DNA of 64,000 bases from contig JAEEIU010000038.1 of assembly GCA_016281495.1 (NCBI GenBank), positions 186,001-250,000 of the forward strand, in the 5' to 3' direction. Shown piece after piece: positions 29,352-58,089 of the stretch (position 1 is the first letter of the stretch; every line of letters starts with the position of its first letter). This stretch comes from Treponema sp. GTDB lineage: Bacteria > Spirochaetota > Spirochaetia > Treponematales > Treponemataceae. A program made the position numbers and the translations under genes. The notes below the pieces were generated by a model. It made no database searches. It was not told where the DNA came from and was given only the letters and a program-made list of their open reading frames with translations.

Positions 29352-29383
29352 TAGTTATGCTCCAAGAGGCGTTTTTTCATTCC

Positions 29384-38416: not shown

Positions 38417-38848
38417 ATGAAGATAACTGACAGGCTAAAGCAGATTTTCGACATAAAATTCCTGAAGTTTCTCCTTGTCGGTCTTATAAACACTGTCGTA
38501 GGTGCGGGAGTAATGTTCCTTTTGTATAACGTCGCGCACTGCGGATACTGGTTTTCAAGCGCCTGTAACTATATAGTTGGTGGAATAGTAAGCTTTTTCT
38601 TGAACAAATACTTTACCTTTACAAATCACGAAAAATCCCTTAAACAGATAATCCTCTTTATCTTGAATCTTTTGGTGTGTTACGTAATCTCATACCTTCT
38701 TGCAAAAAAAGCCGTATATGCCCTGCTGTCATCACAAAGCGAGAAAATTCGAGACAACATTTCGATGCTCATCGGAATGGGACTTTATACAATACTAAAT
38801 TATTTCGGTCAAAGACTTTTAGTCTTTGCTGCCAAAGGAAAAAAATGA
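38417..38848 (+). CDS. gtrA: GtrA-family membrane protein
   Basis: 143 residues, four hydrophobic helices. FLKFLLVGLINTVVGAGVMF, SACNYIVGGIVSFFLNKYFT and the end GMGLYTILNYFGQRLLVF follow the GtrA/DPMS-flippase pattern. GtrA proteins are thought to flip polyprenyl-phosphate-linked sugars across the inner membrane. The ATGA overlap with the following GtrB-like gene, and a GT-C-type gene after that, complete a gtr trio. The -10 box of a likely promoter lies six bases before the ATG. Confidence 0.85.
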   Translation: MKITDRLKQIFDIKFLKFLLVGLINTVVGAGVMFLLYNVAHCGYWFSSACNYIVGGIVSFFLNKYFTFTNHEKSLKQIILFILNLLVCYVISYLLAKKAVYALLSSQSEKIRDNISMLIGMGLYTILNYFGQRLLVFAAKGKK

Positions 38849-39777
38849 TGAGTGACATTTCTCTTGTAGTTCCATGTTTTAATGAAGAAGAAGCTATTCC
38901 TCATTTCTATGAGGAAGCTAACCGCGTATTAAAAGAAATGAATATTTTTGATAATGCAGAATTTGTTTTTGTCGATGACGGGTCATCTGACGGAACTCTG
39001 AGAATTCTACAAGAACTTTTCCATAAGGATAAAAGGATTCATTACGTCAGTTTTTCAAGAAATTTCGGAAAAGAAGCGGCTCTTTATGCAGGTCTATTAA
39101 AATCAAAAGGACAATACACCGCTATAATGGATGCAGACTTACAGGATCCACCTTCACTTTTACCACAGATGCTATCTGCCATACAGAATGAAGGATATGA
39201 TTGTGCGGCCACTAGACGCGCAACAAGAAAGAATGAGCCACCAGTTCGCTCTTTCTTTGCTAGGAAATTTTATAAAATCATGGGAAAACTCAGTAATGTA
39301 CCAGTAGTTGATGGAGCAAGGGATTTCCGGCTTATGACAGAAAAATACAAAAATGCAGTTCTTTCTTTATGTGAGAGAAACCGCTTTACTAAAGGTATCT
39401 TCCCCTGGGTTGGCTTTAACACAAAGTGGTTTTCTTATGATAATATTGGACGTGTTGCGGGAAAAACAAAATGGTCGTTTTGGAAGTTGTTTTTGTATTC
39501 CATCGATGGAATCATCGGTTTTTCTACAAAACCACTTGCTTTTTCCGCCATTGCAGGCATTCTGGGCATAATTCTTTCGTTTATAATGATTGTTTTCATC
39601 ATAATCCGACGGCTTGTATTCGGAGATCCTGTACAAGGCTGGGCAAGTCTAGTATGTATAATTCTTTTTGTTAGTGGAGTCCAACTTTTTACAACAGGTA
39701 TTGCTGGCCTTTATATATCAAAGATATACACAGAAGTTAAACAAAGACCACTTTTTATCATAAAAGAGGAGAAATAA
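38845..39777 (+). CDS. gtrB: polyprenyl-phosphate glycosyltransferase (GtrB-like GT2)
   Basis: 310 residues from the ATG at 38845 (a second ATG follows at once). The longer frame from 38677 lies inside gtrA and is rejected. DISLVVPCFNEEEAIPHFYE, FVDDGSSDGTL, AIMDADLQDPPSL with the catalytic DxD, and GARDFRLM are textbook GtrB/GT2 motifs. Two membrane helices close the protein. It loads a sugar, commonly glucose, onto undecaprenyl phosphate. It is a paralogue of the protein encoded at 2609-3547. Confidence 0.9.
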   Translation: MMSDISLVVPCFNEEEAIPHFYEEANRVLKEMNIFDNAEFVFVDDGSSDGTLRILQELFHKDKRIHYVSFSRNFGKEAALYAGLLKSKGQYTAIMDADLQDPPSLLPQMLSAIQNEGYDCAATRRATRKNEPPVRSFFARKFYKIMGKLSNVPVVDGARDFRLMTEKYKNAVLSLCERNRFTKGIFPWVGFNTKWFSYDNIGRVAGKTKWSFWKLFLYSIDGIIGFSTKPLAFSAIAGILGIILSFIMIVFIIIRRLVFGDPVQGWASLVCIILFVSGVQLFTTGIAGLYISKIYTEVKQRPLFIIKEEK

Positions 39778-39815
39778 TCAGTTTTCAAATTGACAACGAA
39801 TATTAACAAATCCTA

Positions 39816-39844
39816 TTGAAAAACGTTTGATTAGGGTATAGAAT
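39816..39844 (+). promoter_or_regulatory. internal promoter before the GT-C gene
   Basis: TTGAAA (39816-39821), 17 bases, TAGAAT (39839-39844). Both hexamers are identical to those of the promoter at 32597-32625. Confidence 0.6.
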
Positions 39845-39888
39845 GTAATTAGATATTTTGTTGTTAAAAAAATTTATAGGAATATTAT

Positions 39889-41256
39889 ATGGTTACAAAA
39901 AGAACAAGAATTATTGGATTTACAGTTTTATTGGCATTTAGTTTGATATTTTTATGTTTAAGTTTTTTCAGTGACTTTTCTTATAATTTATTAGAGAATC
40001 TCTTACGGATGAAGATTAATACAGACAGATGGCTTCCAATCATAGGAAAGCTTTTGTTTATCACTTCCTTTATACTCCTTATTTCATCAATTGCAGTTCT
40101 TTTTTTCCCCCACATACAGAAATTTTACGAAGAGAAGACTATTCTTTTTTATGCTATTTCATTTTTTCTAATTGCTTTATTATGTCGTTTTGCAGGATTC
40201 TCATTTGAATCAGGTGATTATAAAGACTGCTTAAAACCTTGGTTTGATACATTTAAAGAGGGAAGGCTAGAAGCTATGCGTTCTGATGTCGGTGATTATC
40301 CTGTAATCTATAAATACTTCATTATTCTTTTCACATTTATTCCAATTAATCCTCTTTATTCATATAAAATTCTTTCAATTATTTTTGATTTCCTTCTTGC
40401 AATTTATTCAGGCTTGTTCATTTTGAAAGCAACGGACAGCAAAATAAAAGCATTGTTTGGTTATACTGTAGTTTTGTTTCTTCCAAACTTTATATTAAAC
40501 AGTGCTGTTTGGGCTCAATGTGATTCTATTTTCTCTTTCTTTTGTTTATTAAGTTGCTATTATCTTTATCTTAATAAAGAAAAGAAATGTATAATTTATT
40601 ATACAATTGCATTTTGCTTTAAAATTCAATCAGTTTTCTTTCTACCAGTTTTGATTATTTCTTTGATGAAAAAGAAAATTAAAATTAATTCTCTTATTTG
40701 GTTTCCAATCGTTTATGTTATAGTTTCCATTCCCTCGATTATTTGTGGAATGTCTCCATTTTACGCATTATTTGGTGCATATCTTAAACAAACAACAAAA
40801 TATCAATCAATTAGTTTTAATGCACCTAATCTTTACATGATTTTCAATCATGGTTTCTTAGATCAGAATATAAATTTTCTTCTTATAAGTCTCACACTTG
40901 CTCTTTGTGCAATTATTGCTTTTATCTTCACTAACGACAAAGATGATAAGCCTAGTAAAATTATTCTTCTTTCATATCTTTTTACGCTCATTGTTCCTTT
41001 CACACTTCCGCATATGCATGAAAGATATTTCTTTTTATCAGATGTATTTGCCATTCTTTTTGCTTTTGTTTTTACACAGTATTATTACATATCAATAATT
41101 ACAATTTTTAGTTCTCTTCCTGGTTTAATAGCTTATTTATTTGGAATCAACAGCAATGTCAATCTAGTTTTTATGGCATATCTCATGTTCACGGGTATTC
41201 TTCTCCTGTTCAGAGTATTGCATAAAGAAATTAAATTAGAATCTATAAATCAATGA
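39889..41256 (+). CDS. GT-C family membrane glycosyltransferase
   Basis: 455 residues with about eleven hydrophobic helices. The first large external loop has FAGFSFESGDYKDCLKPWFD with an acidic pair, the GT-C catalytic loop. LNSAVWAQCDSIFSFFCLLS matches the WGQxD-type motif and LPHMHERYFFLSDVF the HERYF motif of bacterial mannosyl/glucosyl GT-C enzymes that use lipid-linked donors. As the third gene after gtrA and gtrB, it should transfer the flipped sugar to a glycan on the outer side of the inner membrane. A 15-base palindrome overlaps its stop codon. Confidence 0.85.
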   Translation: MVTKRTRIIGFTVLLAFSLIFLCLSFFSDFSYNLLENLLRMKINTDRWLPIIGKLLFITSFILLISSIAVLFFPHIQKFYEEKTILFYAISFFLIALLCRFAGFSFESGDYKDCLKPWFDTFKEGRLEAMRSDVGDYPVIYKYFIILFTFIPINPLYSYKILSIIFDFLLAIYSGLFILKATDSKIKALFGYTVVLFLPNFILNSAVWAQCDSIFSFFCLLSCYYLYLNKEKKCIIYYTIAFCFKIQSVFFLPVLIISLMKKKIKINSLIWFPIVYVIVSIPSIICGMSPFYALFGAYLKQTTKYQSISFNAPNLYMIFNHGFLDQNINFLLISLTLALCAIIAFIFTNDKDDKPSKIILLSYLFTLIVPFTLPHMHERYFFLSDVFAILFAFVFTQYYYISIITIFSSLPGLIAYLFGINSNVNLVFMAYLMFTGILLLFRVLHKEIKLESINQ

Positions 41257-41447: not shown

Positions 41448-42722
41448 ATGTTTTTATATATAGATCCCGGTACGGGAAGCATGCTTTTTTCCATACTGAT
41501 AGGAGTCGTAAGTACCCTGTTTTTCTTTGGAAGAAAGATTTTCCTCAATATAAAGTTCATTTTTAGCGGGGGAAAGGCGGAAAAAATAAACAACTCAAAG
41601 ATTCCATATGTAATTTTTTCGGATCATAAGCGTTACTGGAACGTTTTCAAGCCTATTTGTGACGAATTTGAGAAAAACGGTGTGGATATTTCTTACTGGA
41701 CCGCAAGCCCTGATGACCCCGCCCTTTCAGAAAAATATGAGCATGTAAAAGCAGAGTTTATCGGTGAAGGCAACAAGGCTTTTGCCCGCCTTAACATGAT
41801 GAATGCAGGAATTGTGCTAAGTACGACACCTGGATTAGACGTCTATCAATGGAAGCGGAGCCGGAATGTAGACTGGTATGCCCACATAGTTCATATGGCC
41901 ACCGATATAACCACATACCGTATGCTTGGCTTGGACTTTTATGACGCAGTCTTGGTTTCCGGTCCATATCAGCTGCAGCAGGTAAAGGCTCTTGAAACAA
42001 GGAGAAACCTGCCTTCCAAAGAGGTAAAAGTCGTCGGGTGCACCTACATGGATTCCTTAAAGCAAAAGCTTGATTCATCCAAAAGAATCACTGGATCTGA
42101 TAGAAAAACGGTACTTGTAGCCCCATCCTGGGGAAGCAGCGGAATACTTGCCAAATATGGGGAAAAAATCATTGATGCACTTATTGCAACCGGATATAAG
42201 ATTATAGTCCGACCCCATCCTCAGTCTTTTACATCAGAAAAAGAAATGCTTGAAAGCCTCATGGAACGTTATCCAGAAACAGAAGCCATAAAATGGAACC
42301 GTGACAACGACAACTTCAACGTCCTAAATGAAGCCGACATTCTGATTACAGACTTTTCAGGAATCATCCTTGACTATTCTCTTGTTTTCAATAAACCCGT
42401 CATTTTTGCGGATACAACTTTTGACCCGACCCCATATGACGCCGCGTGGATTTCTGAACCTCTATGGATTTTCCAGAACCTTGACAAAATTGGAATAAAG
42501 CTTAATGAAGCGGATTTTGGAAACATGAAGGCCATCATTGACTGTGCAATAGACAGTAAAATTCTGCAGTCTGGAAGAGAAGAAGTTAAAGAAGAATGCT
42601 GGGCAAACATAGGCAGTTCGGCCAAGACAGTTTTTGACTATCTTACTGCCAAACATGAAGAACTTAATGAAAAAAAATTGAAAAACAATAACATAAATAC
42701 TCATGAAGGAGAAGAACAATAA
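41448..42722 (+). CDS. TagF/TagB-like glycerophosphotransferase-family protein
   Basis: 424 residues. The N-terminus MFLYIDPGTGSMLFSILIG is one membrane helix with a conserved DPGTGS motif. The rest is a GT-B fold of the CDP-glycerol glycerophosphotransferase type: VLVAPSWGSSGIL, KIIVRPHPQSF with the catalytic-type RPHP, and ADILITDFSGIILDYSLVFN with the nucleotide-site DxSG. TagF/TagB relatives move phosphoglycerol or related CDP/CMP-activated alcohols to a lipid-linked acceptor at the cytoplasmic face. The gene runs straight into aepX with no gap, so CMP-2-aminoethylphosphonate is a plausible donor. It is a paralogue of the protein encoded at 53771-55030. Confidence 0.82.
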   Translation: MFLYIDPGTGSMLFSILIGVVSTLFFFGRKIFLNIKFIFSGGKAEKINNSKIPYVIFSDHKRYWNVFKPICDEFEKNGVDISYWTASPDDPALSEKYEHVKAEFIGEGNKAFARLNMMNAGIVLSTTPGLDVYQWKRSRNVDWYAHIVHMATDITTYRMLGLDFYDAVLVSGPYQLQQVKALETRRNLPSKEVKVVGCTYMDSLKQKLDSSKRITGSDRKTVLVAPSWGSSGILAKYGEKIIDALIATGYKIIVRPHPQSFTSEKEMLESLMERYPETEAIKWNRDNDNFNVLNEADILITDFSGIILDYSLVFNKPVIFADTTFDPTPYDAAWISEPLWIFQNLDKIGIKLNEADFGNMKAIIDCAIDSKILQSGREEVKEECWANIGSSAKTVFDYLTAKHEELNEKKLKNNNINTHEGEEQ

Positions 42723-44024
42723 ATGCCAAAGACAGTATATCTAGGAATTACAGGAGACATCATTCACCCTGGAATTATAAACATCATTAGCGAAGGTGCA
42801 AAACTTGGAGAACTTACAATTGGCCTTTTAACGGACAGCGCAATTGTCTCACACAAGAGGCTCCCCTATCTGACCTATGACCAGAGGAAAAAGGTTGTAG
42901 AAAACATCAAGGGTGTTGCAAATGTAATCCCGCAGGATGACTGGAGTTATGTTCCAAACATCAAAAAGCTTAAGCCGGACTACATGATTCATGGTGACGA
43001 CTGGAAGACGAACTACCTTTCCAAAATCCGTGATGAATGCTTTGAGGTAATGAAGGAATGGGGCGGCCAGGTAATTGAAATTCCATACACGCAGGGAATC
43101 AATTCCACAGCCCTTGTAGATAATGCAAAGACAATAGGAATTACACCGGACGTACGCCGAGCAACTTTACGCAGGCTTATCGCAGCAAAACCCATCGTTA
43201 GGATTATGGAAGCACATTCCGGACTAAGCGGACTTATCGTTGAGCATACGGAAGTGGTTAAAGATGACGGACTTCATTCTTTTGACGGAATGTGGTCATC
43301 TTCTCTCACCGACTCCACTTCAAAGGGAAAGCCTGACATTGAGGCCGTGGACTTGACTACCCGACTTCAGTCACTTACAGACATTCTTGAATGCACCACA
43401 AAGCCTATAATCTATGACGGAGATACAGGTGACATTCCTGAACACTTTGTATTTACAGTCCGCACACTTGAACGCAACGGAGTCAGTGCCGTCATCATCG
43501 AAGACAAAAAGGGACTCAAAAAGAATTCCCTCTTTGGAACTGAGGCTAAGCAGGTACTTGCAACAGAAGAAGAATTCTGCGAGAAAATAAGCGCCGGTAA
43601 AAAAGCACAGGTAACAAAGGACTTTATGATAATAGCCCGCATAGAGGAAATCATTGCAGGATACAGTGTTGATGAGGCTATAACAAAAGCCTTTGCTGCA
43701 GTCAGGGCTGGAGCAGACGGCGTAATGATTCATTCAAAGGACAAGAGCGGAATGGACATCAAGGAATTCTGCCAGAAGTTCAGGGCCGAATACAAGAACA
43801 TCCCTATCGTACTTGTTCCTACCACATACAATCAGTTTACGGAAAAAGAACTTTGTGAATGGGGAGCAAACATCATCATCTATGCAAACCACATGCTTCG
43901 TGCAAGCTATCCTGCCATGCAAAAGTGTGCGGAAACCATCCTTAAGGCTGAACGTTCGCTTGAGGTCAATGACATCTGTATGCCTATAAAAGAAATACTG
44001 GAGTTAATTCCAGGAACAAAATAG
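42723..44024 (+). CDS. aepX: phosphoenolpyruvate mutase with N-terminal nucleotidyltransferase-like domain
   Basis: 433 residues. Residues 145-433 are PEP mutase (isocitrate lyase superfamily): AHSGLSGLIVEHTEVVKDDG, TKPIIYDGDTGDIPEHF and the diagnostic EDKKGLKKNS at 260-269, matching the EDK-x5-NS signature that separates the mutase from related lyases. It turns PEP into phosphonopyruvate, the entry step to all C-P bonds. Residues 1-135 resemble a cytidylyltransferase (GITGDIIHPGIINIISEGA, GDDWK, TQGINSTAL), but the HxGH motif reads HPGI, so the second His is missing. The ATG follows the previous stop directly. Confidence 0.93.
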   Translation: MPKTVYLGITGDIIHPGIINIISEGAKLGELTIGLLTDSAIVSHKRLPYLTYDQRKKVVENIKGVANVIPQDDWSYVPNIKKLKPDYMIHGDDWKTNYLSKIRDECFEVMKEWGGQVIEIPYTQGINSTALVDNAKTIGITPDVRRATLRRLIAAKPIVRIMEAHSGLSGLIVEHTEVVKDDGLHSFDGMWSSSLTDSTSKGKPDIEAVDLTTRLQSLTDILECTTKPIIYDGDTGDIPEHFVFTVRTLERNGVSAVIIEDKKGLKKNSLFGTEAKQVLATEEEFCEKISAGKKAQVTKDFMIIARIEEIIAGYSVDEAITKAFAAVRAGADGVMIHSKDKSGMDIKEFCQKFRAEYKNIPIVLVPTTYNQFTEKELCEWGANIIIYANHMLRASYPAMQKCAETILKAERSLEVNDICMPIKEILELIPGTK

Positions 44025-44153: not shown

Positions 44154-47128
<2,975 letters not shown>

Positions 47129-47169: not shown

Positions 47170-47209
47170 ATGAAGAATTAGAGTTACCATTACGGTTTAA
47201 GGATTGAAG

Positions 47210-49933
47210 ATGGGGCATTTTCTCTATACGGTGGTCATTTATCCACTTTACATGATTATAGAACTTATTTACTCCATAGTTTACCGACTGACGGATAACG
47301 AAGGTTTGTCTGTCATTGCTGTAAGCGTCGGAATTACTCTGCTTTGCCTGCCCCTATATGCCGTAGCCGAAAAATGGCAGGAAATTGAACGCAATAAACA
47401 GGCTCAAATGAAAGCCGGTTTGGGCATGATAAAAAATGCTTTTACAGGTGATGAGCGATATATGATAACTAATGCCTACTATAGAGAGAACAATTACTCA
47501 CCTATTATGGCTCTTCGCTCATCGTTTGGAATTCTTATCCAAATTCCTTTTTTTCTTGCCGCTTATAATTTTCTTTCGAATCTTGAATCATTAATAGGTG
47601 TCTCTTTTCTTTTTATCCATGACATGGGGGAACCTGACGCACTTTTTTCTATAGGCTCTTTCCAGATCAATATTTTGCCCATCGCCATGACTTTGATTAA
47701 CATGGTTTCCGGTGCAATCTATACAAAAGGTCATTCCCTAAGGGAAAAAGTCCAGGTTTATGGAATGGCTTTAGTTTTCCTCGTTATTCTGTATAATTCC
47801 CCTTCTGGCCTTGTCCTTTACTGGACCATGAACAATGTATTCAGCATGGTTAAAAATATCTTCTACAAATTTAAAAATCCCATCAAAGTATTCTGGATTT
47901 CTTGCCTAGCCATAAGCATCTGTCTTTTAATTATTGCATTTATAAGCACTACTTTAGCTTATGAAGGTTTATTTGTTTTCTTAGTACTTTTTATAGCTTT
48001 ACTACCATTACTTGTCAAAGGTGTTTCAAAACTTTTAGATACAAGACTCAGCTCTTTTGTTGAAAACCGAGGACAAAAAAATATCATTTTCTTTAGCTCC
48101 TGCATCCTCCTTTTCGTTCTTACAGGACTTGCCATACCAACTTCATTGATGGCATCCTCACCGGCAGAATTTGCCGAAATAGGAAACCATCCTAACCCCA
48201 TGTGGTACGTCTTTAATACAGCCTTACAGTCAGCTGGACTTTTTGTATTCTGGCCTTTATGCATTTATTTCCTGTTCAATAAGCGAGTAAAAACCATTTT
48301 TTCCTTGTTTATGACGATTCTCGCTTTCATCTTCCTTGCAAATACATATATATTTATGCTTTCTTACGGCGATATTTCAACTTCGCTTGTATTTCTGGAT
48401 GCAGCAGATTTTAAGACATTTTCCCCAATATCTATTTTAAATATTCTTGCCATTCTCTGTATTTTCATATTAGTTACTTTTTTTATCCCTATAAAAAAGG
48501 GAAAAGTTTTCTCTTATTTGCTTTCAATTCTTGCCCTAACATTAACAGCTATCTCATTTGTCAACTCAAGCAGGATACTATCTACATACAAAGAGTATAA
48601 GTCACACTCAGAAACAGCCAGCAATCAATCCATCAATCCGATCTTTCATTTGTCAAAAGACAAGCCAAATGTCATACTCATAATGCTTGATAAAGCATCT
48701 AATCATTATGTCACATCAATATTTGATGAAAGCAAAAAAGTTTCTGATGCCTTTACTGGCTTTACTCTTTATCCAAATACAATTTCTTTTAACGGACATA
48801 CTTTACAAGGAGCTCCTGGTATTTGGGGAGGTTATGAGTATACTCCGTATGAGATGAATAAAAAAAGTTCTGAAACATTAAAAGACAAAAACAACCAGGC
48901 TATTCTCATGCTTCCACGAATATTCTCAGAGGAAAAGAATTATTCAGCAACAATAACAGATCCTTCCTGGGCAAATTACAGTCAAACAAATATCTGTGAC
49001 CTTACATTCCTTGATGAATATCCGAAAATTAAAGGCTATAGAACTATCGGCACTTATACTGATTATTGGTTAAAAAAATACAATAAAAAAGGAGAACTTC
49101 TAGACAATTCGGAATATATCTTGAGCCGAAATCTTTTATTTTTTAGCTTTTTCAGGGAATTCCCAATTTGTCTTAGGGAGTTTCTATACAAAAAAGGAAA
49201 ATACTGGTCAAGCAATGAGGATGCCGTACACTCCAAAATCATACTTGACAACTACAGTACACTCGATCTTCTCCCCGAATTAACAGATTTCAACAATGAA
49301 AACGATGGATCATATATTTGTATGGTAAATGAGCTTACACATAATGATCAGTTTATGCAAGCCCCTGACTACACGCCAGTTTCTGAAGTTACAGATTATG
49401 GGAAATCAAGATTCCGTGATAATTCAGATTATCACACTATGGCTGCATCTTTTTCACTTCTTTCGAAATGGTTTGATTACCTTAAAGAAAATAATGTTTA
49501 TGACAACACAAGAATTATACTTGTTGCAGACCACGGTAGCCAATATGAAGAAGATTGTTTTGATGATGATTCTTCAAATAAAGTTTCTGTCGGAAGGGGG
49601 AGATATCATCCTCTTTTGATGTTCAAAGATTTCAATACTGATGGAAAATTAAATGAAGACATGACTTTTATGACAACGGCAGATGTTCCAACCTTACTTT
49701 TAAATGGTCTTATTGAATCTCCAATTAATCCTTTCACAAATAAACAAGTTCCACTAGACACCACCGACATCAAGAATAAAGGCGTCATAATAAGTACCGA
49801 TAGCAAACACAAACCGGAATATCACAATCAATATACATTTGATGTTGATGATGGAGATTGGTGGCTTGTAAAAGATGATATTTTCCAAAGTAAGAATTGG
49901 ACAAAAGCAGCTCCAACTTCTAAGGACAAATAG
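47210..49933 (+). CDS. YidC-like domain fused to LtaS/sulfatase-type transferase domain (copy A)
   Basis: 907 residues from the ATG at 47210; AAGGA lies upstream, and copy B begins in the same way. Residues 1-225 resemble the YidC/Oxa1 core: LSVIAVSVGITLLCLPLYAV, a cytoplasmic helical hairpin, then SFGILIQIPFFLAAYNFLSN and LYNSPSGLVLYWTMNNVFSM. The Arg usual in the first core helix is Thr here. About six more helices follow (230-460). Residues 485-907 form an alkaline-phosphatase/sulfatase-superfamily domain: Asp494 in ILIMLDKA, possible nucleophile Thr531 in NGHTLQGAP, His711 in NELTHND, and Asp774-His775 in ADHGS. This is an LtaS-like layout, suggesting transfer of a phospho- or phosphono-group outside the membrane. 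Confidence 0.8.
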   Translation: MGHFLYTVVIYPLYMIIELIYSIVYRLTDNEGLSVIAVSVGITLLCLPLYAVAEKWQEIERNKQAQMKAGLGMIKNAFTGDERYMITNAYYRENNYSPIMALRSSFGILIQIPFFLAAYNFLSNLESLIGVSFLFIHDMGEPDALFSIGSFQINILPIAMTLINMVSGAIYTKGHSLREKVQVYGMALVFLVILYNSPSGLVLYWTMNNVFSMVKNIFYKFKNPIKVFWISCLAISICLLIIAFISTTLAYEGLFVFLVLFIALLPLLVKGVSKLLDTRLSSFVENRGQKNIIFFSSCILLFVLTGLAIPTSLMASSPAEFAEIGNHPNPMWYVFNTALQSAGLFVFWPLCIYFLFNKRVKTIFSLFMTILAFIFLANTYIFMLSYGDISTSLVFLDAADFKTFSPISILNILAILCIFILVTFFIPIKKGKVFSYLLSILALTLTAISFVNSSRILSTYKEYKSHSETASNQSINPIFHLSKDKPNVILIMLDKASNHYVTSIFDESKKVSDAFTGFTLYPNTISFNGHTLQGAPGIWGGYEYTPYEMNKKSSETLKDKNNQAILMLPRIFSEEKNYSATITDPSWANYSQTNICDLTFLDEYPKIKGYRTIGTYTDYWLKKYNKKGELLDNSEYILSRNLLFFSFFREFPICLREFLYKKGKYWSSNEDAVHSKIILDNYSTLDLLPELTDFNNENDGSYICMVNELTHNDQFMQAPDYTPVSEVTDYGKSRFRDNSDYHTMAASFSLLSKWFDYLKENNVYDNTRIILVADHGSQYEEDCFDDDSSNKVSVGRGRYHPLLMFKDFNTDGKLNEDMTFMTTADVPTLLLNGLIESPINPFTNKQVPLDTTDIKNKGVIISTDSKHKPEYHNQYTFDVDDGDWWLVKDDIFQSKNWTKAAPTSKDK

Positions 49934-49934
49934 A

Positions 49935-51029
49935 ATGAAATATGAATGTATTGTGATTAATGGTAAATTCCTTGAACAAAAACTCACTGGCGTACAGAGA
50001 TTTGCACTTGAGCTTACAAAAGCTCTTGATTCAAAAGCTAGTTCTTTACCATTAAAACTCATTCTTGCAATTTCACCGAAGGCAGACAAATACAACATTC
50101 CTCCTCTTAAAAACATTCAAGTAGAAACAATAGGTTTTGGTAAAGGAGTTTTTTGGGAACAGATATGTCTTTCTTCTTTCATTCGCAAAATGAAAGCCTT
50201 AGGACTTCATTTTTGCAATGCAGTACCTGTCTTTGCACCAAAAGGAATTGCTGTTTTGCATGACATCAGCTACAAAGTCAATCCATCTTTTTTTACCACA
50301 TTCAAACATAAAATTATTCGTATTTGGCATTTGATGCAGTATAAAGCCTGTGTTTCTCATTCCCTTGTCCTTTTGACTGTCAGTGAATTCAGCAAAAAAC
50401 AGATTTGTCATACATACAAAATCAATCCAGAAAAGATTACAGTCGTTTATAACGGCTGGCAGCATTTTAACACGACAGCAGATGATTCCTTACTTGAAAA
50501 ATATCCATTCCTACAAAAAGGTGAATATTATTACAGCATGGCAACCCTTGCAAAAAACAAGAATTTAAAATGGATTATTGAATGTGCTAGGAATAATCAG
50601 GATTCTGATTTTGCCATAGCAGGTTTGCTTGACCTAAAAAAACATGGTGTTTCCCTTGAAAATGATTCCGTTTCTAATAACATACATTATCTTGGATATG
50701 TCACTGATGAAGATGCCCGCTCTTTGATGAAAAACTGTAAGGCTTTTATTTTTCCTTCATTATACGAAGGCTTTGGTATTCCACCTCTTGAGGCACTTGC
50801 AATGGGATCGAAGGTCATTTGTTCAAATTCTACATGTCTCCCAGAGATTTTCGGGAAAAGCGTACATTACATTAATCCTAACGATCCTAATGTAAATCTG
50901 GATCAATTACTTCAAGAAAAAACAGACGATGCAGAACTTGCCCTTTCAAAATACAGCTGGAAAAACACATCTTCCAAAACAATTGAAGTAATAAATAAAC
51001 TTTTGGTAACTCGAGGAGAAGAAAAATAA
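49935..51029 (+). CDS. GT4 glycosyltransferase, paralogue of the enzyme encoded at 37240
   Basis: 364 residues from the ATG at 49935, one base after the stop of the previous gene. VINGKFLEQKLTGVQRFALE, IAVLHDISYKVNPSFFTTF, LTVSEFSKKQICHTYKINPE, VVYNGWQHF and FPSLYEGFGIPPLEALAMGS with the E-x7-E motif define GT4. It shares its whole layout with the protein encoded at 37240-38310. It sits between the two YidC-LtaS-like genes and overlaps the second by one base (TAATG), so it is likely to add a sugar to the same polymer. Confidence 0.88.
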   Translation: MKYECIVINGKFLEQKLTGVQRFALELTKALDSKASSLPLKLILAISPKADKYNIPPLKNIQVETIGFGKGVFWEQICLSSFIRKMKALGLHFCNAVPVFAPKGIAVLHDISYKVNPSFFTTFKHKIIRIWHLMQYKACVSHSLVLLTVSEFSKKQICHTYKINPEKITVVYNGWQHFNTTADDSLLEKYPFLQKGEYYYSMATLAKNKNLKWIIECARNNQDSDFAIAGLLDLKKHGVSLENDSVSNNIHYLGYVTDEDARSLMKNCKAFIFPSLYEGFGIPPLEALAMGSKVICSNSTCLPEIFGKSVHYINPNDPNVNLDQLLQEKTDDAELALSKYSWKNTSSKTIEVINKLLVTRGEEK

Positions 51030-53767
51030 TGGCAAACTTTTTATATACTATAATAATTTATCCACTCTATACAATAATTGAAGTCATTTACATGTTTGCC
51101 ATGAAAGTTACTGACAATAAGGGACTTTCCGTTATTGCAGTCAGTGTGGGAATAACACTATTGTGCCTCCCCCTTTATGCTGTTGCCGAAAAATGGCAAG
51201 AAGTTGAACGTAATAAACAAGCACAAATGAAAGGTTATCTTAAAAGGATTAAAGAGACTTTTACCGGTGATGAACGCTATATGATGACCACAGCCTATTA
51301 TAAAGAAAATAATTATTCCCCGATTATGAGCCTTCGTTCTTCTTTCGGACTTTTGATTCAGATTCCTTTTTTCATAGCCGCCTACACTTTCCTTTCTCAC
51401 CTTGAATCTCTAAATGGTGTTTCTTTCCTTTTTATTCGTGACATGGGACATCCAGACGCTTTATTTTCTATAGGTTCTTTCCAGATCAACATTCTTCCCA
51501 TCGCAATGACATTAATCAACATGATTTCTGGAGCTATTTATACTAAGGGACATTCTGTAAGGGAAAAAATACAGGTTTATGGAATGGCTTTGATTTTTCT
51601 GGTTATACTCTATAATTCTCCTGCAGGACTTGTCCTTTATTGGACTATGAACAATGTCTTTAGCATGATAAAAAATATTTTCTACAAATTCAAGAAACCT
51701 CTCAAGGCTTTTTGGCTTTTTTGTTGCATCGTTTCATGTCTTGCCCTTATTTATATTCTATTCATTTTCAAGACAAAAACCGCATATAAGGGTATATTTA
51801 CAATAATAGTCCTACTGATTTTTATCGCGCCGTTATTGGTAAAAGCGGTTCAAAAACTTCTTGATACTAGATTCAAGAGCCTTACGGAAAGCAAATCTGC
51901 CCGCCATGGTGTTTTTTTGGCATCCATACTTGTACTTTTCATTCTTTCTGGGCTGACAATTCCATCCTCTTTGATGGCATCTTCTCCAACAGAGTTTGCA
52001 GGAATTGGCAATCATCCTAATCCCATCTGGTACATATTTAATACAACCTTGCAGTCTGCAGGCTTATTTCTTTTCTGGTTTGTATGCATCTACTTTCTGT
52101 TCAACAATAGAATTCAAACCATACTTGCCGTTATTTCATCAATCTTAGCCCTATCAGCCTTGTTGAATACTTACATCTTCATGCCTTCTTATGGCGACAT
52201 ATCATATTCACTTGCATTCCTGAACGCAGTTAACTTTAGAACCTTTTCTTCTTATGCAATACTAAATCTGCTGTCTCTACTACTCCTCACCGTTCTTGTA
52301 GTTCTATTTGTTCATTTAACAAAAGGAAAAGTGTTTACATATACATTTACAATTTTGAGCCTTGCACTTACCGCAATATCAGCATACAATATATTTTCAA
52401 TTCAAAAATCATATATTGCCTATAAAGACAATTCTGAGGTAAATGCCGTTTCCAATGTATCACCCATCTACCATTTTTCTAAAACCGGCAAAAATGTCCT
52501 TCTTATCATGCTTGACAGGGCTCAATGCAATTATGTACAGGAAATAATGAAAGAAAGCCCTGATCTCCTGTCTTCATTCTCAGGATTTACACTATATCCT
52601 AATACAGTATCTTTTAATGGACATACACTTCAGGCAGCTCCTGCAATTTGGGGTGGCTATGAATATACACCATTAGAAATGAATAAAAGGGATGATGTCC
52701 CTCTTAAGGATAAAAACAACGAATCCCTTCTCATGATGCCAAGATTATTCAGCGAGGACTTGGATTTTAATGTCACCATAACGGATCCTTCGTGGGCAAA
52801 TTATAGTGCAATTTGTGATCTATCTTTTCTTGAGCCTTACCCAAAAATCAACGGATATAAAACTATTGGCGGATATACAGATTACTGGCTAAAAAAACAA
52901 AATGGAAATGAGATTACTGATTATTCGGAAGACATTCTTAAACGAAACTTATTCTTTTTCAGTTTATTTAGGGAAATTCCAGTTTGTTTTCGCGAAATAC
53001 TGTATTACAAGGGAAAATACTGGTCAAGCAATGATAAACTTCAGGATAACAAACTTATAATGGACAATTATACAGCTCTTGCAGTATTACAGGATTTAAC
53101 ATCTTTTGATGGAAATGCAAATGGTTCTTACACATGTATTGTAAACGAACTTACTCATGAGAATTATTACTTTGAAGCACCTGATTATATCCCAGTAAAG
53201 AATGTCATAAATCATGGTACTTCAAAATATAAAGATTTTGGAGATTATCACACACAAATTGCTGCATTTAAGATGGTAGGAAAATGGTTTGATTTTCTAA
53301 AAGAAAACGGCATTTATGATAATACCAGAATCATTGTTGTTTCTGATCATGGGAACTATGGAATTGAAGAAGGATTTGAAAAAGATGATGACCTCGATAA
53401 TAAAGTTGCAGATACAAACTATTCTGGACGAGGACATTATCATCCTCTTTTATTGTTCAAAGATTTTAACACATTAAATAATGAACTCCTTATAGACGAC
53501 ACTTTTATGACAAATGCAGATGTACTTTCATTACTTTTAAAAGATCTTATTCAAAAACCTGTTAACCCCTTTACGAAAAAAGAAATTCCAATTAACACAA
53601 TTCTGCAAAAGCAAAATGGAGTCATAATCAGTACAAGTGACAAACACCAGCCGGCTTATAATGGAAAATTTAAATATACGATAGGCGAAGATAATTGGTG
53701 GCTAGTTAAGGACAATATTTTTAAAAGCGATAATTGGTCTCAAGTAAAACCTGATTTGGAGGAATAA
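51029..53767 (+). CDS. YidC-like domain fused to LtaS/sulfatase-type transferase domain (copy B)
   Basis: 912 residues. The YidC-like part (1-225) is nearly the same as in copy A (LSVIAVSVGITLLCLPLYAV, LYNSPAGLVLYWTMNNVFSM). The middle helices and the catalytic domain are more diverged, but they keep the metal and active-site motifs: LLIMLDRAQ, NGHTLQAAP, VNELTHEN and VVSDHGNYG. The matching Thr again stands where YidC has Arg. Two copies with the same motor-like front and diverged catalytic halves suggest two substrates or two steps (primer and polymer), as with LtaP/LtaS. It is followed three bases later by a TagF-like gene. Confidence 0.8.
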   Translation: MANFLYTIIIYPLYTIIEVIYMFAMKVTDNKGLSVIAVSVGITLLCLPLYAVAEKWQEVERNKQAQMKGYLKRIKETFTGDERYMMTTAYYKENNYSPIMSLRSSFGLLIQIPFFIAAYTFLSHLESLNGVSFLFIRDMGHPDALFSIGSFQINILPIAMTLINMISGAIYTKGHSVREKIQVYGMALIFLVILYNSPAGLVLYWTMNNVFSMIKNIFYKFKKPLKAFWLFCCIVSCLALIYILFIFKTKTAYKGIFTIIVLLIFIAPLLVKAVQKLLDTRFKSLTESKSARHGVFLASILVLFILSGLTIPSSLMASSPTEFAGIGNHPNPIWYIFNTTLQSAGLFLFWFVCIYFLFNNRIQTILAVISSILALSALLNTYIFMPSYGDISYSLAFLNAVNFRTFSSYAILNLLSLLLLTVLVVLFVHLTKGKVFTYTFTILSLALTAISAYNIFSIQKSYIAYKDNSEVNAVSNVSPIYHFSKTGKNVLLIMLDRAQCNYVQEIMKESPDLLSSFSGFTLYPNTVSFNGHTLQAAPAIWGGYEYTPLEMNKRDDVPLKDKNNESLLMMPRLFSEDLDFNVTITDPSWANYSAICDLSFLEPYPKINGYKTIGGYTDYWLKKQNGNEITDYSEDILKRNLFFFSLFREIPVCFREILYYKGKYWSSNDKLQDNKLIMDNYTALAVLQDLTSFDGNANGSYTCIVNELTHENYYFEAPDYIPVKNVINHGTSKYKDFGDYHTQIAAFKMVGKWFDFLKENGIYDNTRIIVVSDHGNYGIEEGFEKDDDLDNKVADTNYSGRGHYHPLLLFKDFNTLNNELLIDDTFMTNADVLSLLLKDLIQKPVNPFTKKEIPINTILQKQNGVIISTSDKHQPAYNGKFKYTIGEDNWWLVKDNIFKSDNWSQVKPDLEE

Positions 53768-53770
53768 TTT

Positions 53771-55030
53771 ATGAACTTTTTATATATAGATCCTGGAACA
53801 GGAAGCATGCTCTTTTCTATTCTAATTGGGGCTGCTGCAACTTTGTTTTTTCTTGTAAAGGCATTATGGCTTAAGATAAAAGTGTTCTTTTCTGGTAAGA
53901 AAAGTGGCGTTGAAATGGATGCTTCTTACAAACCCTATGTCATATATAACGAGGGGAAACAGTACCTTAATCTTTTCAGGCCAATAGTTGAAGAGTTTGA
54001 AAGAAGAAAAGTAAACCTTTCTTATCTGACATCGATTAAAGATGATCCTATTTTTGAAGAAAAACTTGAATATGTTAAATCAGAATACATAGGCGAAGGG
54101 AATGCGGCTTATGCCAAACTTAACATGCTAAGTGCCGGAATAGTATTAATGACTACTCCAGGATTAAATGTATATCAGTTAAAAAGAAGCCGTCGAGTAA
54201 AGTATTATGCAAACATCATTCATGGTGCCAGTGATCCAACCATGATGAGGCTATTTGCCCTTGATTTTTTTGATGCAGTACTTCTTACAGGCGAATATCA
54301 GATAAAGGACATCCGTTATCTTGAGGATCAGAGGGGAATTACTAAAAAAGAACTCATTGTTGTAGGCTGTCCTTATTTGGATGCCCTTAAAGAAAAAATT
54401 GATTCTATTCCAAGTGAAAATGATCATAAGTTTACCGTTCTTGTTTCCCCCAGCTGGGGACCAAGTGCCCTTCTTTCCAAATATGGTGAAAAACTTCTGG
54501 ATCCACTTGTTGATTCCGGCTTTAACATCATCATCCGCCCACATCCACAGTCAAGAAAAACTGAAAATCAAGTTTTGGAACGAATAACTGAAAAATATAG
54601 AACCTGTGAAAATATTGAATGGGATTATGCAAGTGACAACATTTATTCCATGAAGAAATCCGATATAATGATTTCTGATTTTTCCGGCATCATCTATGAC
54701 TATACCTTCCTATGTGACAAACCAGTCATATATGTAAATGCGGAACTAAATCTTAAGCCATATGATGCTTATGACCTTCCAAATAATGGTAAAACCATAT
54801 GGCAGTTTGAAGTCCTAAGAAAAATAGGCATAGAATTGAAGGAAGAAAACTTTTTAAACATAAAGGAAATCATTCAAAATGCCAGTGACAGCGACGAGCT
54901 GTCAAAAGCAAGAAATAGTGCAAAGAATGAAGCTTGGATGCATATGGGGGAATCTGCCAAGTTGACAGTTGATTATATGCTTGGTAAAATTGCTAACAAC
55001 TCAAAAGAAAAGGAAGAAACAAATGATTAA
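53771..55030 (+). CDS. second TagF/TagB-like glycerophosphotransferase-family protein
   Basis: 419 residues, the same plan as the protein encoded at 41448: N-terminal helix NFLYIDPGTGSMLFSILIG, then a TagF-type GT-B fold with VLVSPSWGPSALLSKYGEKL, IIIRPHPQSR and SDIMISDFSGIIYDYTFLCD. The two copies differ throughout, so they are old paralogues. This one directly follows YidC-LtaS-like copy B and overlaps the class V aminotransferase by eight bases. It may use the CDP/CMP-alcohol made by the next two genes, while the first copy uses CMP-AEP; this division is inference. Confidence 0.82.
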   Translation: MNFLYIDPGTGSMLFSILIGAAATLFFLVKALWLKIKVFFSGKKSGVEMDASYKPYVIYNEGKQYLNLFRPIVEEFERRKVNLSYLTSIKDDPIFEEKLEYVKSEYIGEGNAAYAKLNMLSAGIVLMTTPGLNVYQLKRSRRVKYYANIIHGASDPTMMRLFALDFFDAVLLTGEYQIKDIRYLEDQRGITKKELIVVGCPYLDALKEKIDSIPSENDHKFTVLVSPSWGPSALLSKYGEKLLDPLVDSGFNIIIRPHPQSRKTENQVLERITEKYRTCENIEWDYASDNIYSMKKSDIMISDFSGIIYDYTFLCDKPVIYVNAELNLKPYDAYDLPNNGKTIWQFEVLRKIGIELKEENFLNIKEIIQNASDSDELSKARNSAKNEAWMHMGESAKLTVDYMLGKIANNSKEKEETND

Positions 55031-56108
55031 CTTTACAGTTGGTCCTGTACAAATGGATGATGAAACTCGGAACCTTGGATATGAACAAATTCCATACTTT
55101 AGAACTCCAGAATTTTCTTCCATAATGAAAGAAAATGAAAGGCTTTTATGTTCTTTTTTTGATGCACCTGATAATTCCAGGGTCATTTTCATGACTGGCT
55201 CCGGTACGGCATCCATGGAAGGTGGGGTAATCAATTTCTTTACAAAAGAAGATAAAGTTTTAGTGGTTAACGGTGGAAGTTTCGGACAGCGTCTTATAGA
55301 ACTATGTGAAATTCATGAAATACCTTTTACAGAAATAAAACTTGATTACGGAAAACCGTTGACAGAAAAACATCTTTCTCAATTTATTGGAAAAGGTTAC
55401 ACAGGTTTTTTAGTTCAATTATGCGAAACATCTACCGGTGTACTATATGACATGGAATTGATTGGTGATTTCTGTAATGCCAATGGTCTTTTTCTCTTTG
55501 TAGATGCCGTTAGTGGTTTTATGGCAGATACTTTTTCCATGAAGAAAATGCATGTAAACGCCGCCATTACAGGAAGCCAAAAAGCCCTCTCCCTTCCTCC
55601 CTCAATGAGTTTTACAGTTTTAGATGAAACAGCCATTGAAAAATGTAAAAAAAATGACATCAATACTTTATATTTTAATTATCCTCTATATCTTAAAAAC
55701 GGTGACCGCGGTCAAACGCCTTTTACCCCAGCAGTAGGAACTCTTCTTCAATTAAATGAAAAATTGAGACGCATTGAAAAATCTGGTGGAATTATAGTTC
55801 AAAACAAAATTGCATCTGAACGTGCAGAATATTTTAGAAAAGCAATTACCAGTCTCCCTTTCAAAATTTTTACAGACAAAGATAGTTCCTCAAATTGTGT
55901 TACGGCGCTTTGTCCAACAAATCCAGGTATAAGTGCATATGAAATATTTGAAATTTTAAAAGATGAATATGGTATATGGATTTGTCCCAATGCTGGTGAC
56001 CTGGCAGAAAGAGTTTTCCGTGTTGGCCACATAGGCAGCATAAAAAATGAAGAAATAGATAAATTGGTTGAATCTTTCAAGGATTTAGTTAAGAGAGGAT
56101 TAATATGA
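55023..56108 (+). CDS. class V PLP aminotransferase (AEP transaminase/alanine-glyoxylate type)
   Basis: 361 residues from the ATG at 55023; a longer frame from 54969 lies within the previous gene. INFTVGPVQMDDETRN, FMTGSGTASMEGGVINFF, VQLCETSTGVLYDMELIG and FVDAVSGFMADTFSM are class V motifs close to AepZ and serine/alanine-glyoxylate transaminases. The PLP lysine is Lys187 in TGSQKALSLPPS. A transaminase half is already present in PntC-AepZ, so this second one may make a different amino alcohol or phosphonate, or act in reverse. It overlaps the cytidylyltransferase gene by four bases (ATGA). Confidence 0.8.
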   Translation: MINFTVGPVQMDDETRNLGYEQIPYFRTPEFSSIMKENERLLCSFFDAPDNSRVIFMTGSGTASMEGGVINFFTKEDKVLVVNGGSFGQRLIELCEIHEIPFTEIKLDYGKPLTEKHLSQFIGKGYTGFLVQLCETSTGVLYDMELIGDFCNANGLFLFVDAVSGFMADTFSMKKMHVNAAITGSQKALSLPPSMSFTVLDETAIEKCKKNDINTLYFNYPLYLKNGDRGQTPFTPAVGTLLQLNEKLRRIEKSGGIIVQNKIASERAEYFRKAITSLPFKIFTDKDSSSNCVTALCPTNPGISAYEIFEILKDEYGIWICPNAGDLAERVFRVGHIGSIKNEEIDKLVESFKDLVKRGLI

Positions 56109-56560
56109 TAGCAGGAAAAACAGTTGTATACACAAGCGGAACCTTTGACATGCTCCATGCAAACCACATCAAAATGATTGAATATGCCAGATCTCTTGGG
56201 GATATTCTTATTGTAGGCGTAAACACAGATGAATTGGTTGCAAGTTATAAATCCACTCCCATCATTCCATTTGATGAAAGAATTGCCTTGGTTAAAGCAC
56301 TAAAATATCCCGATATAGTGATTCCACAACACTCGCTAAATCATGCAGATAAAGTGGAAAAACTTAATTTTGATGTTTTTGTAGTTGGAGATGACTGGGC
56401 CGGTAAATATGATTATCTTAAGGAACAGGGTGTTGACGTAGTCTATTTTCCTTATGGAAGTGGAATCAGCAGTTCTAGCCTAAAGCAGCGTATCTACGAG
56501 AATTATGAGCAAATGAAAAAGAAAGCCGACAGCCATTTTCCTTTTGATGCTGAAACATGA
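56105..56560 (+). CDS. cytidylyltransferase of the TagD/GCT family with altered HxGH motif
   Basis: 151 residues. VVYTSGTFDMLHANHIKMIE carries the nucleotidyltransferase motif as H18-A19-N20-H21, where TagD and its relatives have HxGH. VVGDDWAGKYDYLKEQGVDV and the terminal GISSSSLKQRI (RTxGISTT-like) match CTP:glycerol-3-phosphate and CTP:phosphoethanolamine cytidylyltransferases. It should make a CDP-alcohol such as CDP-glycerol for the TagF-like and LtaS-like enzymes. Its ATGA overlap with a transaminase gene suggests an amino-containing substrate. The substrate is unproven. Confidence 0.8.
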   Translation: MIAGKTVVYTSGTFDMLHANHIKMIEYARSLGDILIVGVNTDELVASYKSTPIIPFDERIALVKALKYPDIVIPQHSLNHADKVEKLNFDVFVVGDDWAGKYDYLKEQGVDVVYFPYGSGISSSSLKQRIYENYEQMKKKADSHFPFDAET

Positions 56561-56607
56561 TGTATAATAAAAAAACTTATAGACTTTTTTTTATCGAAGG
56601 AAATATA

Positions 56608-58089
56608 ATGCATTTTATGAAAAGAATCGTTTTTTCCATATTATTATTTATTCTCTTTTTTTTTGATTTTCCTGTTTTATCTGCTGAAAATTCAGAATTC
56701 GCTGATACACAACCCGTAGACATCTCTATTGAAAACTCAGATAATAAAGAACTTATTAACACAGGTTTATCTTTTAATCAAGATGTTTATTCTCCAAGTT
56801 TTAAAGATTATTTGTTATCATGTTTAATTACACAGTTTGACAATATAATGCTATCTTTTTATAATAGGACTATTGATCCAAAGCCATACGCAAATATTGA
56901 TTTGGAAATTATTTATCATAATATCACAAATCCCTGGGTATGGGATAATGATGAATTCAGCATAAATCAAATGGGACATCCTTATCAAGGTTCAATGTAT
57001 CACCAAGGTGCAAGATCTAATGGTTTAAATTTTTATGAGTCTCTTGCCGTAACAACTTTTGGTTCTCTTACATGGGAATTGTTGATGGAGAATGAAACTC
57101 CTTCATTTAATGATTTAATAATAACATCCCTACAGGGATCTTTTTTTGGAGAAGTTTTACATCGGTTATATCTTGACACAACAGGAAAAATTCCTTTCTT
57201 TCCAGCTTTAATAGCCCCTCAATCTGCTCTTAATCATTTTATAACAGGTAAAACTTTCCCAAAAAAGTCTTTGAGTCATATCCTTGAGTTTTCTATAGGT
57301 GTTGGAACTGGCCTATATAATAATACTATATCTCAAGCAGCTAATGGAAACATTTTTAATACTTCAAATACACCCCAAATCGATCTTTATGGTAGATTAA
57401 AATATGGAGATATCTATAAATCTTCTACTTTTATTCCATTTGAATCATTTTCAGTAGAAGCATTAGGAGCCCTTAATTTTCCCATTAATTACTTACTCTT
57501 TATGAGTGCAGATGGTACTTTATTATCTTTAATACCTATCTTTAATACTGCAACTGTCTTTTCCTTAAACTTGATTTACCAATATTACTTTACATTTCAA
57601 GAAATTAACTTTTCAAATAATGCTCTAGGTGCTACAATCCAGCAGAAAATAGATGTAAATGACGACACTTCTATTGAATGGAAAGAACAGTTTCAATTCG
57701 CTTTTCTGGCGGGATATGACTGTCATTATCTGTTAGTTGAAGACAAAAGGTCTGATCCTTTCGACAATGAACAGAGGCTTTATGACTTGGGTATTGGAGT
57801 GGGAAACAATGCAAGTTTCACATTTAAAAACCCAACGATTGGTAATTTTAAATTAGAAGCTTATGCAGGCATCTTCAAGACAATTCCTGTATCAGTCCAG
57901 ACGGAAGGTTCTGATGGTTTTTCTGCGGTTGAATATGTCTCGGTTGATTATGAGCATAAAATCTATAAGAATCTTTCTTTTGCTATCAACTCTCTTTTCT
58001 ACTTCAGGCAGGCTGTTTACGATGACTTGAAGAATTACACGCAGTTTGCAAACGACACATCTGTGTTTGTCAGATATAACTTCCTCTAA
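56608..58089 (+). CDS. DUF3943 protein, exported, probable outer-membrane protein
   Basis: 493 residues from the ATG at 56608, which has GAAGG seven bases upstream; an earlier frame from 56557 would bury the signal peptide. MKRIVFSILLFILFFFDFPV is a signal peptide ending near LSAEN. WVWDNDEFSINQMGHPYQGS and YHQGARSNGLNFYESL are the DUF3943 core. The C-terminal half is made of alternating beta-type strands and ends in FVRYNFL with terminal hydrophobics, as in outer-membrane barrels. It is the last gene of the operon and may serve surface placement of the polymer. Its stop overlaps a convergent gene by four bases. Confidence 0.75.
   Translation: MHFMKRIVFSILLFILFFFDFPVLSAENSEFADTQPVDISIENSDNKELINTGLSFNQDVYSPSFKDYLLSCLITQFDNIMLSFYNRTIDPKPYANIDLEIIYHNITNPWVWDNDEFSINQMGHPYQGSMYHQGARSNGLNFYESLAVTTFGSLTWELLMENETPSFNDLIITSLQGSFFGEVLHRLYLDTTGKIPFFPALIAPQSALNHFITGKTFPKKSLSHILEFSIGVGTGLYNNTISQAANGNIFNTSNTPQIDLYGRLKYGDIYKSSTFIPFESFSVEALGALNFPINYLLFMSADGTLLSLIPIFNTATVFSLNLIYQYYFTFQEINFSNNALGATIQQKIDVNDDTSIEWKEQFQFAFLAGYDCHYLLVEDKRSDPFDNEQRLYDLGIGVGNNASFTFKNPTIGNFKLEAYAGIFKTIPVSVQTEGSDGFSAVEYVSVDYEHKIYKNLSFAINSLFYFRQAVYDDLKNYTQFANDTSVFVRYNFL

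Follow-up and report, generated by a model that had tools for sequence, protein, structure and literature searches.

How does a nucleotide-activated phosphonate made inside a spirochaete cell reach the cell surface, and what would a relative of the YidC insertase be doing in the operon that makes it? PntC of Treponema denticola produces CMP-2-aminoethylphosphonate (CMP-AEP), and the steps that follow have been described as enigmatic (PMC6697681). Both questions are raised by the window, a 64,000-nucleotide stretch of contig JAEEIU010000038.1 from the 3.2-Mb genome of a Treponema species, where genes of the phosphonate type are found with two genes for proteins that join a YidC-like membrane core to a domain of the alkaline phosphatase (AP) superfamily. 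This fusion family is labelled C0 here, and the family of TagF-like proteins that accompanies it is labelled C1.

The first C0 gene (47204..49933, plus strand) encodes 909 residues from a TTG codon at 47204, the in-frame ATG at 47210 being the start used in the first-pass annotation, and its product consists of a YidC-like core (residues 34-221), predicted transmembrane (TM) helices, and an AP-superfamily domain from about residue 485. The product of the second gene (51029..53767, plus strand; 912 residues) has the same order, with the YidC-like core at residues 1-222, seven predicted TM helices (about 224-468), and the AP-superfamily domain at 486-912; the two proteins share 63% identity. Both match the Pfam 60KD_IMP/YidC family above cut-off (copy 1, residues 34-221, E 7.6e-21; copy 2, residues 32-219, E 5.1e-23). 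An AlphaFold model of copy 2 built with 67 relatives (pLDDT 90.7, pTM 0.85) contains the five-helix YidC core fold in its N-terminal part, which superposes on Bacillus halodurans YidC (3wo6) with a TM-score of 0.73 by target length, an rmsd of 3.4 A and 24% identity. Within C0 it is the YidC-like part that has diverged least, and it has therefore been kept by selection.

For the C-terminal half, Pfam alone is weak: the Sulfatase family (PF00884) matches copy 1 with an E value of 2.3e-7, and copy 2 gives a sub-threshold Phosphodiest match (1.8e-4) and a Sulfatase match of only 0.01. The AP-superfamily identity of this half in copy 2 is settled by the structure model, in which residues 486-912 match LtaP, LtaS, YejM, EptC, phosphonate monoester hydrolases and sulfatases with Z scores of 18-20 (for instance, 19.5 for LtaP 4uop_B, with an rmsd of 4.0 and 304 residues, and 18.3 for LtaS 2w5r). 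Five residues (D496, T533, H710, D773 and H774) are invariant in an alignment of 68 C0 members, and by their position in the sequence T533 is taken as the nucleophile and D496, D773 and H774 as metal ligands. The middle helices (residues 221-480) are also modelled with high confidence when folded alone (pLDDT 91.9), and a search of PDB structures with this region returned no clear match, the best Z score being 6.3 and that of YejM (6v8q) 4.4. In one Brachyspira-like locus (L184, 10514-13454), a C0 copy is spread over two overlapping ORFs of 731 and 281 residues, a frameshift or an assembly error, with intact C0 copies adjoining it.

The hydrophilic-groove Arg of YidC lies five positions ahead of a conserved Pro in the first core helix, and the 68 C0 members have Ser (29), Thr (27) or Asn (12) there, never Arg. 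The charge of this Arg has been called strictly conserved in all YidC homologues, and E. coli YidC is nonetheless functional without R366 if position 517 is aromatic or hydrophilic (PMC8920935). All 68 C0 members have a Trp at residue 205, which the sequence suggests is the counterpart of position 517. For these reasons the missing Arg is a weak clue: it marks a distinct subfamily and by itself is no proof of lost insertion, and the argument that a protein lacking the Arg cannot be an insertase was dropped.

It could be asked whether C0 is still a protein insertase or chaperone, carrying an attached sulfatase or phosphodiesterase and having no part in headgroup transfer. The well-conserved YidC core fits such a role, as does the Trp at the position where an aromatic residue makes Arg loss tolerable in E. 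coli. However, the same genome encodes a canonical YidC of 612 residues with Arg at the groove position, and C0 is linked to, and co-occurs with, one TagF-like enzyme and activation cassettes rather than genes for membrane-protein biogenesis. The catalytic residue also speaks against a sulfatase of type I, as the nucleophile position holds Thr, and the Cys/Ser-x-Pro-x-Arg formylglycine motif was not seen around it when the C0 alignment was read by eye. An insertase with an attached hydrolase is accordingly very improbable.

Much of the first-pass annotation is borne out to this point: its two proteins of about 910 residues, their YidC-like cores, AP-superfamily domains that keep metal and nucleophile motifs, and the replacement of the groove Arg. 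It had gone on to suggest, from the missing Arg, that the insertase fold has been reused, perhaps to hold or pass a lipid-linked polymer; reuse of the fold stands, and the lipid idea is favoured by the evidence below, with the Arg contributing little to it.

Two C1 genes frame this region. The first (41448..42722, plus strand) encodes a TagF-like protein (PF04464, E 2.6e-11, above cut-off) that begins with a YIDPGTGSM segment and a TM helix, and the second (53771..55030, plus strand; PF04464, E 9.1e-9, above cut-off) starts 3 bases past C0 copy 2. In the product of the latter, YIDPGTG occupies residues 5-11, and all seven residues are invariant in 30 of 30 aligned C1 proteins and nearly so beyond them. 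The predicted topology is a short N-out tail with an invariant Asp, a single helix, and then positive residues; two deep-branching members have a signal-peptide-like helix ahead of the YIDPGTG segment. The RPHP(Q) motif and other invariant residues of TagF-type enzymes are retained, and neither C0 nor C1 has a Pfam match to LicD (PF04991).

Between the first C1 gene and C0 copy 1, on the plus strand, are genes for a PEP mutase (Ppm) fused to a cytidylyltransferase-like domain (42723..44024; TIGR02320, E 1.8e-116, above cut-off), a phosphonopyruvate decarboxylase (Ppd; 44154..45281; TIGR03297, E 9.5e-151, above cut-off), and a nucleotidyltransferase fused to a 2-AEP aminotransferase (45293..47128), a PntC-AEPT fusion of the type of Tde1415 (PMC6697681). 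A GT4 glycosyltransferase gene (49875..51029, plus strand) lies between the two C0 genes and overlaps each of them. Downstream is a second activation cassette, also on the plus strand, of a class V aminotransferase (54969..56108; PhnW-like, below cut-off) and a TagD-like cytidylyltransferase (56105..56560; TIGR01518, E 1.8e-32, below cut-off), and this pair probably makes a further CDP-linked amino-alcohol phosphate. The same pair adjoins C1-C0 in another locus (L045), and the closest grouping of C1 copy 2 in its family tree is with members that adjoin nucleotidyltransferase-aminotransferase fusions of 608 or 609 residues.

Several other genes of the window are of note. A DUF3943 protein gene (56557-58089) closes the operon, with relatives recurring near C0 in three further loci (L047, L065 and L070). 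Directly upstream of C1 copy 1, at 38417-41256, are genes for a GtrA-like protein (PF04138), a GtrB-like GT2 and a 455-residue polytopic protein with no Pfam match, which are part of this operon and probably make up a glycosylation system of the three-component kind. Farther upstream (28080-30259 and 33792-35024) lies an O-antigen-type ABC exporter, consisting of a permease and two ATPase genes whose C-terminal extensions differ in sequence, and flanked by many sugar-nucleotide and glycosyltransferase genes.

In a set of 392 Spirochaetota genomes, each 90% complete or more, 124 carry C0 (counted at E 1e-40 or better), from the genus of the window to other classes, Brachyspira-like genomes included. 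The first-pass annotation had proposed looking for co-occurrence with TagF-like genes, and this was found: C1 is present in 120 of the 124 genomes with C0 and in none of the 268 without it, counts that are not phylogenetically independent. The four C0-bearing genomes with no C1 match are G366, G109, G445 and G247, and C0 itself is absent from a small 1.1-Mb Treponemataceae genome (G158). One genome with C0, which we take to be T. denticola ATCC 35405, has the gene 22 kb from that for PEP mutase. C0 also occurs in some Clostridia, and of 295 genomes in the clostridial order that was sampled, 10 carry C0 and exactly these 10 carry full-length C1. The six other TagF-like matches in this order begin at profile positions 51-53, without the N-terminal segment, and five of them are in genomes that lack C0.

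The association extends to gene order. C1 is the commonest neighbour of C0 in a clustering of neighbouring genes (76 of 98 loci); of the 81 C1 genes in a non-redundant set of 94 loci, 61 immediately adjoin C0, as against 22 expected and a maximum of 37 in 2000 within-locus shuffles, and 41 of the 64 same-strand C0-C1 pairs in these loci overlap. C1 is thus a nearly obligate partner, nearly always present with C0 in two phyla, a point on which the analysis goes beyond the first-pass annotation.

A search of viral contigs with C0 found no relative, and a plasmid collection yielded fragments of canonical YidC only. Two candidates for a wider or simpler distribution were rejected. A C0-bearing contig labelled Tannerella (L118) might have indicated spread to Bacteroidota; the genome is without C1, and the contig is probably a mis-binned one of spirochaete origin. 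In the case of a supposed clostridial stand-alone YidC-like gene (G571), the match stops at the contig end and is no evidence for one.

The YidC-like part can also be a separate gene, a second point not foreseen in the first-pass annotation. Such split versions are rare among C0 relatives, and three were found. In one (L182), genes for Ppm, Ppd, PntC-AEPT, a YidC-like protein of 238 residues, C1 and a 607-residue PF00884 protein are arranged as a single operon; in another (L183), there are a 286-residue YidC-like gene, C1 and a 594-residue protein that aligns with the sulfatase-type protein of L182, with phosphonate genes on the other strand; and in the third (L181), a sulfatase-type gene, C1 and a 229-residue YidC-like gene are separate. 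Where canonical YidC has the groove Arg, each of the three stand-alone YidC-like proteins has Asn. As the YidC-like, C1 and AP-superfamily parts are separate yet linked in these loci, they belong together even when unfused.

What is transferred is indicated by the activation cassettes beside C0 and C1. Phosphonate cassettes are found in Treponema, other spirochaete families, Brachyspira-like genomes and Clostridia, and a set with the logic of licABC (nucleotidyltransferase, choline kinase and EamA transporter) is found in Clostridia and one Brachyspira-like genome. Further cassettes include a heptose-type set and a fusion of a nucleotidyltransferase with an aminotransferase-like domain of class I/II, the latter perhaps serving CDP-ethanolamine. 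Of 16 genomes tested for LicD (PF04991), 14 gave no match, that of the window among them, and the other two did. Beside several C0 genes (L051, L052, L085, L086 and L103) there is an MBOAT O-acyltransferase (C28) with an unannotated neighbour (C22), resembling a DltB/DltD-like pair.

The operon context laid out in the first-pass annotation (TagF-like, Ppm, Ppd and PntC-AEPT genes, and a GT4 gene between the C0 copies) is as described, and the role it gave C0 in surface-polymer chemistry, together with the TagF-like and phosphonate genes, is supported. Its designation of the C0 proteins as synthases of a teichoic-like polymer fares less well, as the cassettes make single activated groups (CMP-AEP, CDP-choline) and transfer of headgroups is likelier than polymerisation. 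In its fullest form, the polymer hypothesis would have C0 as an LtaS-like synthase on the outer face of the membrane, making chains of alditol phosphates or a teichoic-like polymer that bears phosphonates, with the YidC-like part as a scaffold. The catalytic domain does match LtaP and LtaS as well as any relative (Z 18-20) and keeps the Thr nucleophile, C1 is TagF-like, and a TagD-like enzyme is encoded nearby. However, the cassettes make capping groups such as AEP and phosphocholine, which have no second hydroxyl for polymerisation; LtaS is a more distant sequence relative of the catalytic domain than are sulfatases and phosphonate monoester hydrolases; and there are several C0 paralogues per operon. 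An LtaS-like polymerase is thus improbable, and transfer of single headgroups remains the preferred reading.

Which of the two partners reads the cassette was addressed with trees of 28 de-replicated operons, to which cassette labels were assigned from gene neighbours. The C1 tree tracks the cassette, with 7 changes against a shuffled mean of 13.2 (none of 300 shuffles as low), although the heptose-type cassette is not clearly sorted on it. For these operons the C0 tree shows no such tracking (12 changes against 13.1; 83 of 300 as low), and the idea of a separate headgroup for each C0 clade was consequently rejected. From this contrast between the trees, it is probably C1 that reads the activated donor, with C0 probably acting afterwards.

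Co-variation points to the part of C0 with which C1 is associated. In 52 adjacent pairs, distances between C1 proteins correlate (Spearman) with those of the YidC-like part of C0 at 0.75, the middle region at 0.62 and the catalytic part at 0.50, and the difference between the YidC-like and catalytic correlations has a bootstrap interval of 0.13 to 0.35. Partial correlation with C1 gives 0.64 for the YidC-like part and 0.04 for the catalytic part given the YidC-like part, although distances in the catalytic part are larger, so that saturation may depress their correlation. Saturation alone is no explanation, because the middle region is still more divergent and correlates better (0.62).

Taken with the domain make-up, the predicted fold, the conserved catalytic residues, co-occurrence, the split genes and the link to cassettes, the tracking of cassettes by C1 and this co-variation form the basis for proposing that C0 and C1 constitute a two-sided machine by which small headgroups, phosphoryl or phosphonyl, are transferred, a proposal in which our belief and our doubt are about equal. 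In such a machine, the cassette would first make a nucleotide-activated group, CMP-AEP here and CDP-choline or others elsewhere. C1, anchored by its N-out helix, would then take the group off its nucleotide and, at the inner face, load it onto what may be a lipid or a lipid-linked sugar. The YidC-like part of C0 would act as the membrane partner of C1 by docking the YIDPGTGS helix, and the loaded lipid may cross to the outer face through the hydrophilic groove of the YidC-like part, presumably by scrambling. Lipid scrambling has been demonstrated in vitro for E. coli YidC, yeast Oxa1 and Get1 reconstituted in liposomes (PMC10491306). Finally, the outer AP-superfamily domain would take the group onto its Thr nucleophile and hand it to an acceptor, presumably a surface glycan or glycolipid.

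The crossing of the membrane is where the strongest alternative arises. The YidC-like part may be only a docking site or a private insertase for C1, inserting or holding its N-out tail and helix and so placing C1 beside the outer catalytic domain, with the lipid crossing by another protein. The topology of C1 (a short N-tail, an invariant Asp, one helix, positive residues) is exactly that expected of a small client of YidC. Every C1 with a YidC-like partner has the YIDPGTGS segment, which the other TagF-like proteins of the clostridial order lack, and C1 co-varies with the YidC-like part. Against this, an insertase is catalytic and one canonical YidC would do; tandem C0 paralogues with one C1 in an operon exceed the needs of docking; and the route of the product to the outer catalytic domain is left unexplained. 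On balance, a docking site or private insertase is unlikely, though it is the foremost competitor. The lipid could also be flipped by a separate flippase, with both C0 and C1 simply members of its pathway.

The two-sided machine has partial counterparts in known systems. LtaS/LtaP, YejM, EptA/EptC/MCR-1 and OpgB, which take the headgroup from a lipid donor, resemble C0 in having an outer AP-superfamily domain after TM helices, the motifs of a single metal site and a Thr nucleophile; however, they have no YidC-like domain in front, and C0 alone has a near-constant TagF-like partner. The insertases of the YidC/Oxa1/Alb3 family share the fold of C0 residues 1-222, and members scramble lipids in vitro (PMC10491306), whereas C0 is without the groove Arg, is fused or linked to a transferase, and co-exists with a canonical YidC. 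Tailoring by lic and pnt genes (LicABC-LicD; PntC) follows the same activation logic, with choline kinase, LicB-like EamA protein and cytidylyltransferase, or Ppm, Ppd, AEPT and PntC (PMC6697681), but C1 and C0 stand in the place of LicD, which most of the genomes tested lack. The layout of a cytoplasmic loader, a membrane carrier and an outer transferase is that of Gtr three-component glycosylation (GtrA flippase, GtrB and GtrII-type glycosyltransferase); unlike Gtr systems, C0 and C1 would handle phosphoryl groups rather than sugars, use a YidC fold rather than GtrA, and usually have the carrier and outer enzyme fused. C1 in turn shares PF04464 (above cut-off), RPHP(Q) and other invariant residues with the CDP-alditol phosphotransferases TagB, TagF and TarL, and differs from them in being short and single-domain, in its nearly invariant N-out YIDPGTGS helix, and in its obligate YidC-like partner.

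Each of these folds is known, and the novelty lies in how they are combined, in a pairing that is obligate across two phyla, and in the phosphonate operons that contain split versions. No described YidC-sulfatase or YidC-LtaS protein, or C0-C1 pair, was found in the literature searched, a weak negative given that the search was incomplete and most subscription journals lay outside it. Rather more tentatively than the two-sided machine itself, we suggest that a branch of YidC gave up protein insertion and now serves as lipid carrier in a machine for decorating the surface in general, working with a TagF-like loader and an outer phosphotransferase to move phosphonate, phosphocholine and related headgroups through the membrane in Spirochaetota and Clostridia.

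If true, this would represent a third type of transbilayer group transfer, the other two being Gtr systems and the transferases that draw on a phospholipid donor, such as LtaS and EptA. Passage of lipids by the YidC-like part, if it occurs, would provide a natural example of a dedicated lipid carrier built on an insertase fold, and would bear directly on the recent claim that insertases act as scramblases. The synthases of spirochaete surface lipids are poorly known. The phosphonate route from CMP-AEP to the cell surface has been stated as open (PMC6697681), and the C0-C1 module is a concrete candidate for the missing steps after CMP-AEP, one that also accompanies choline cassettes mostly without LicD.
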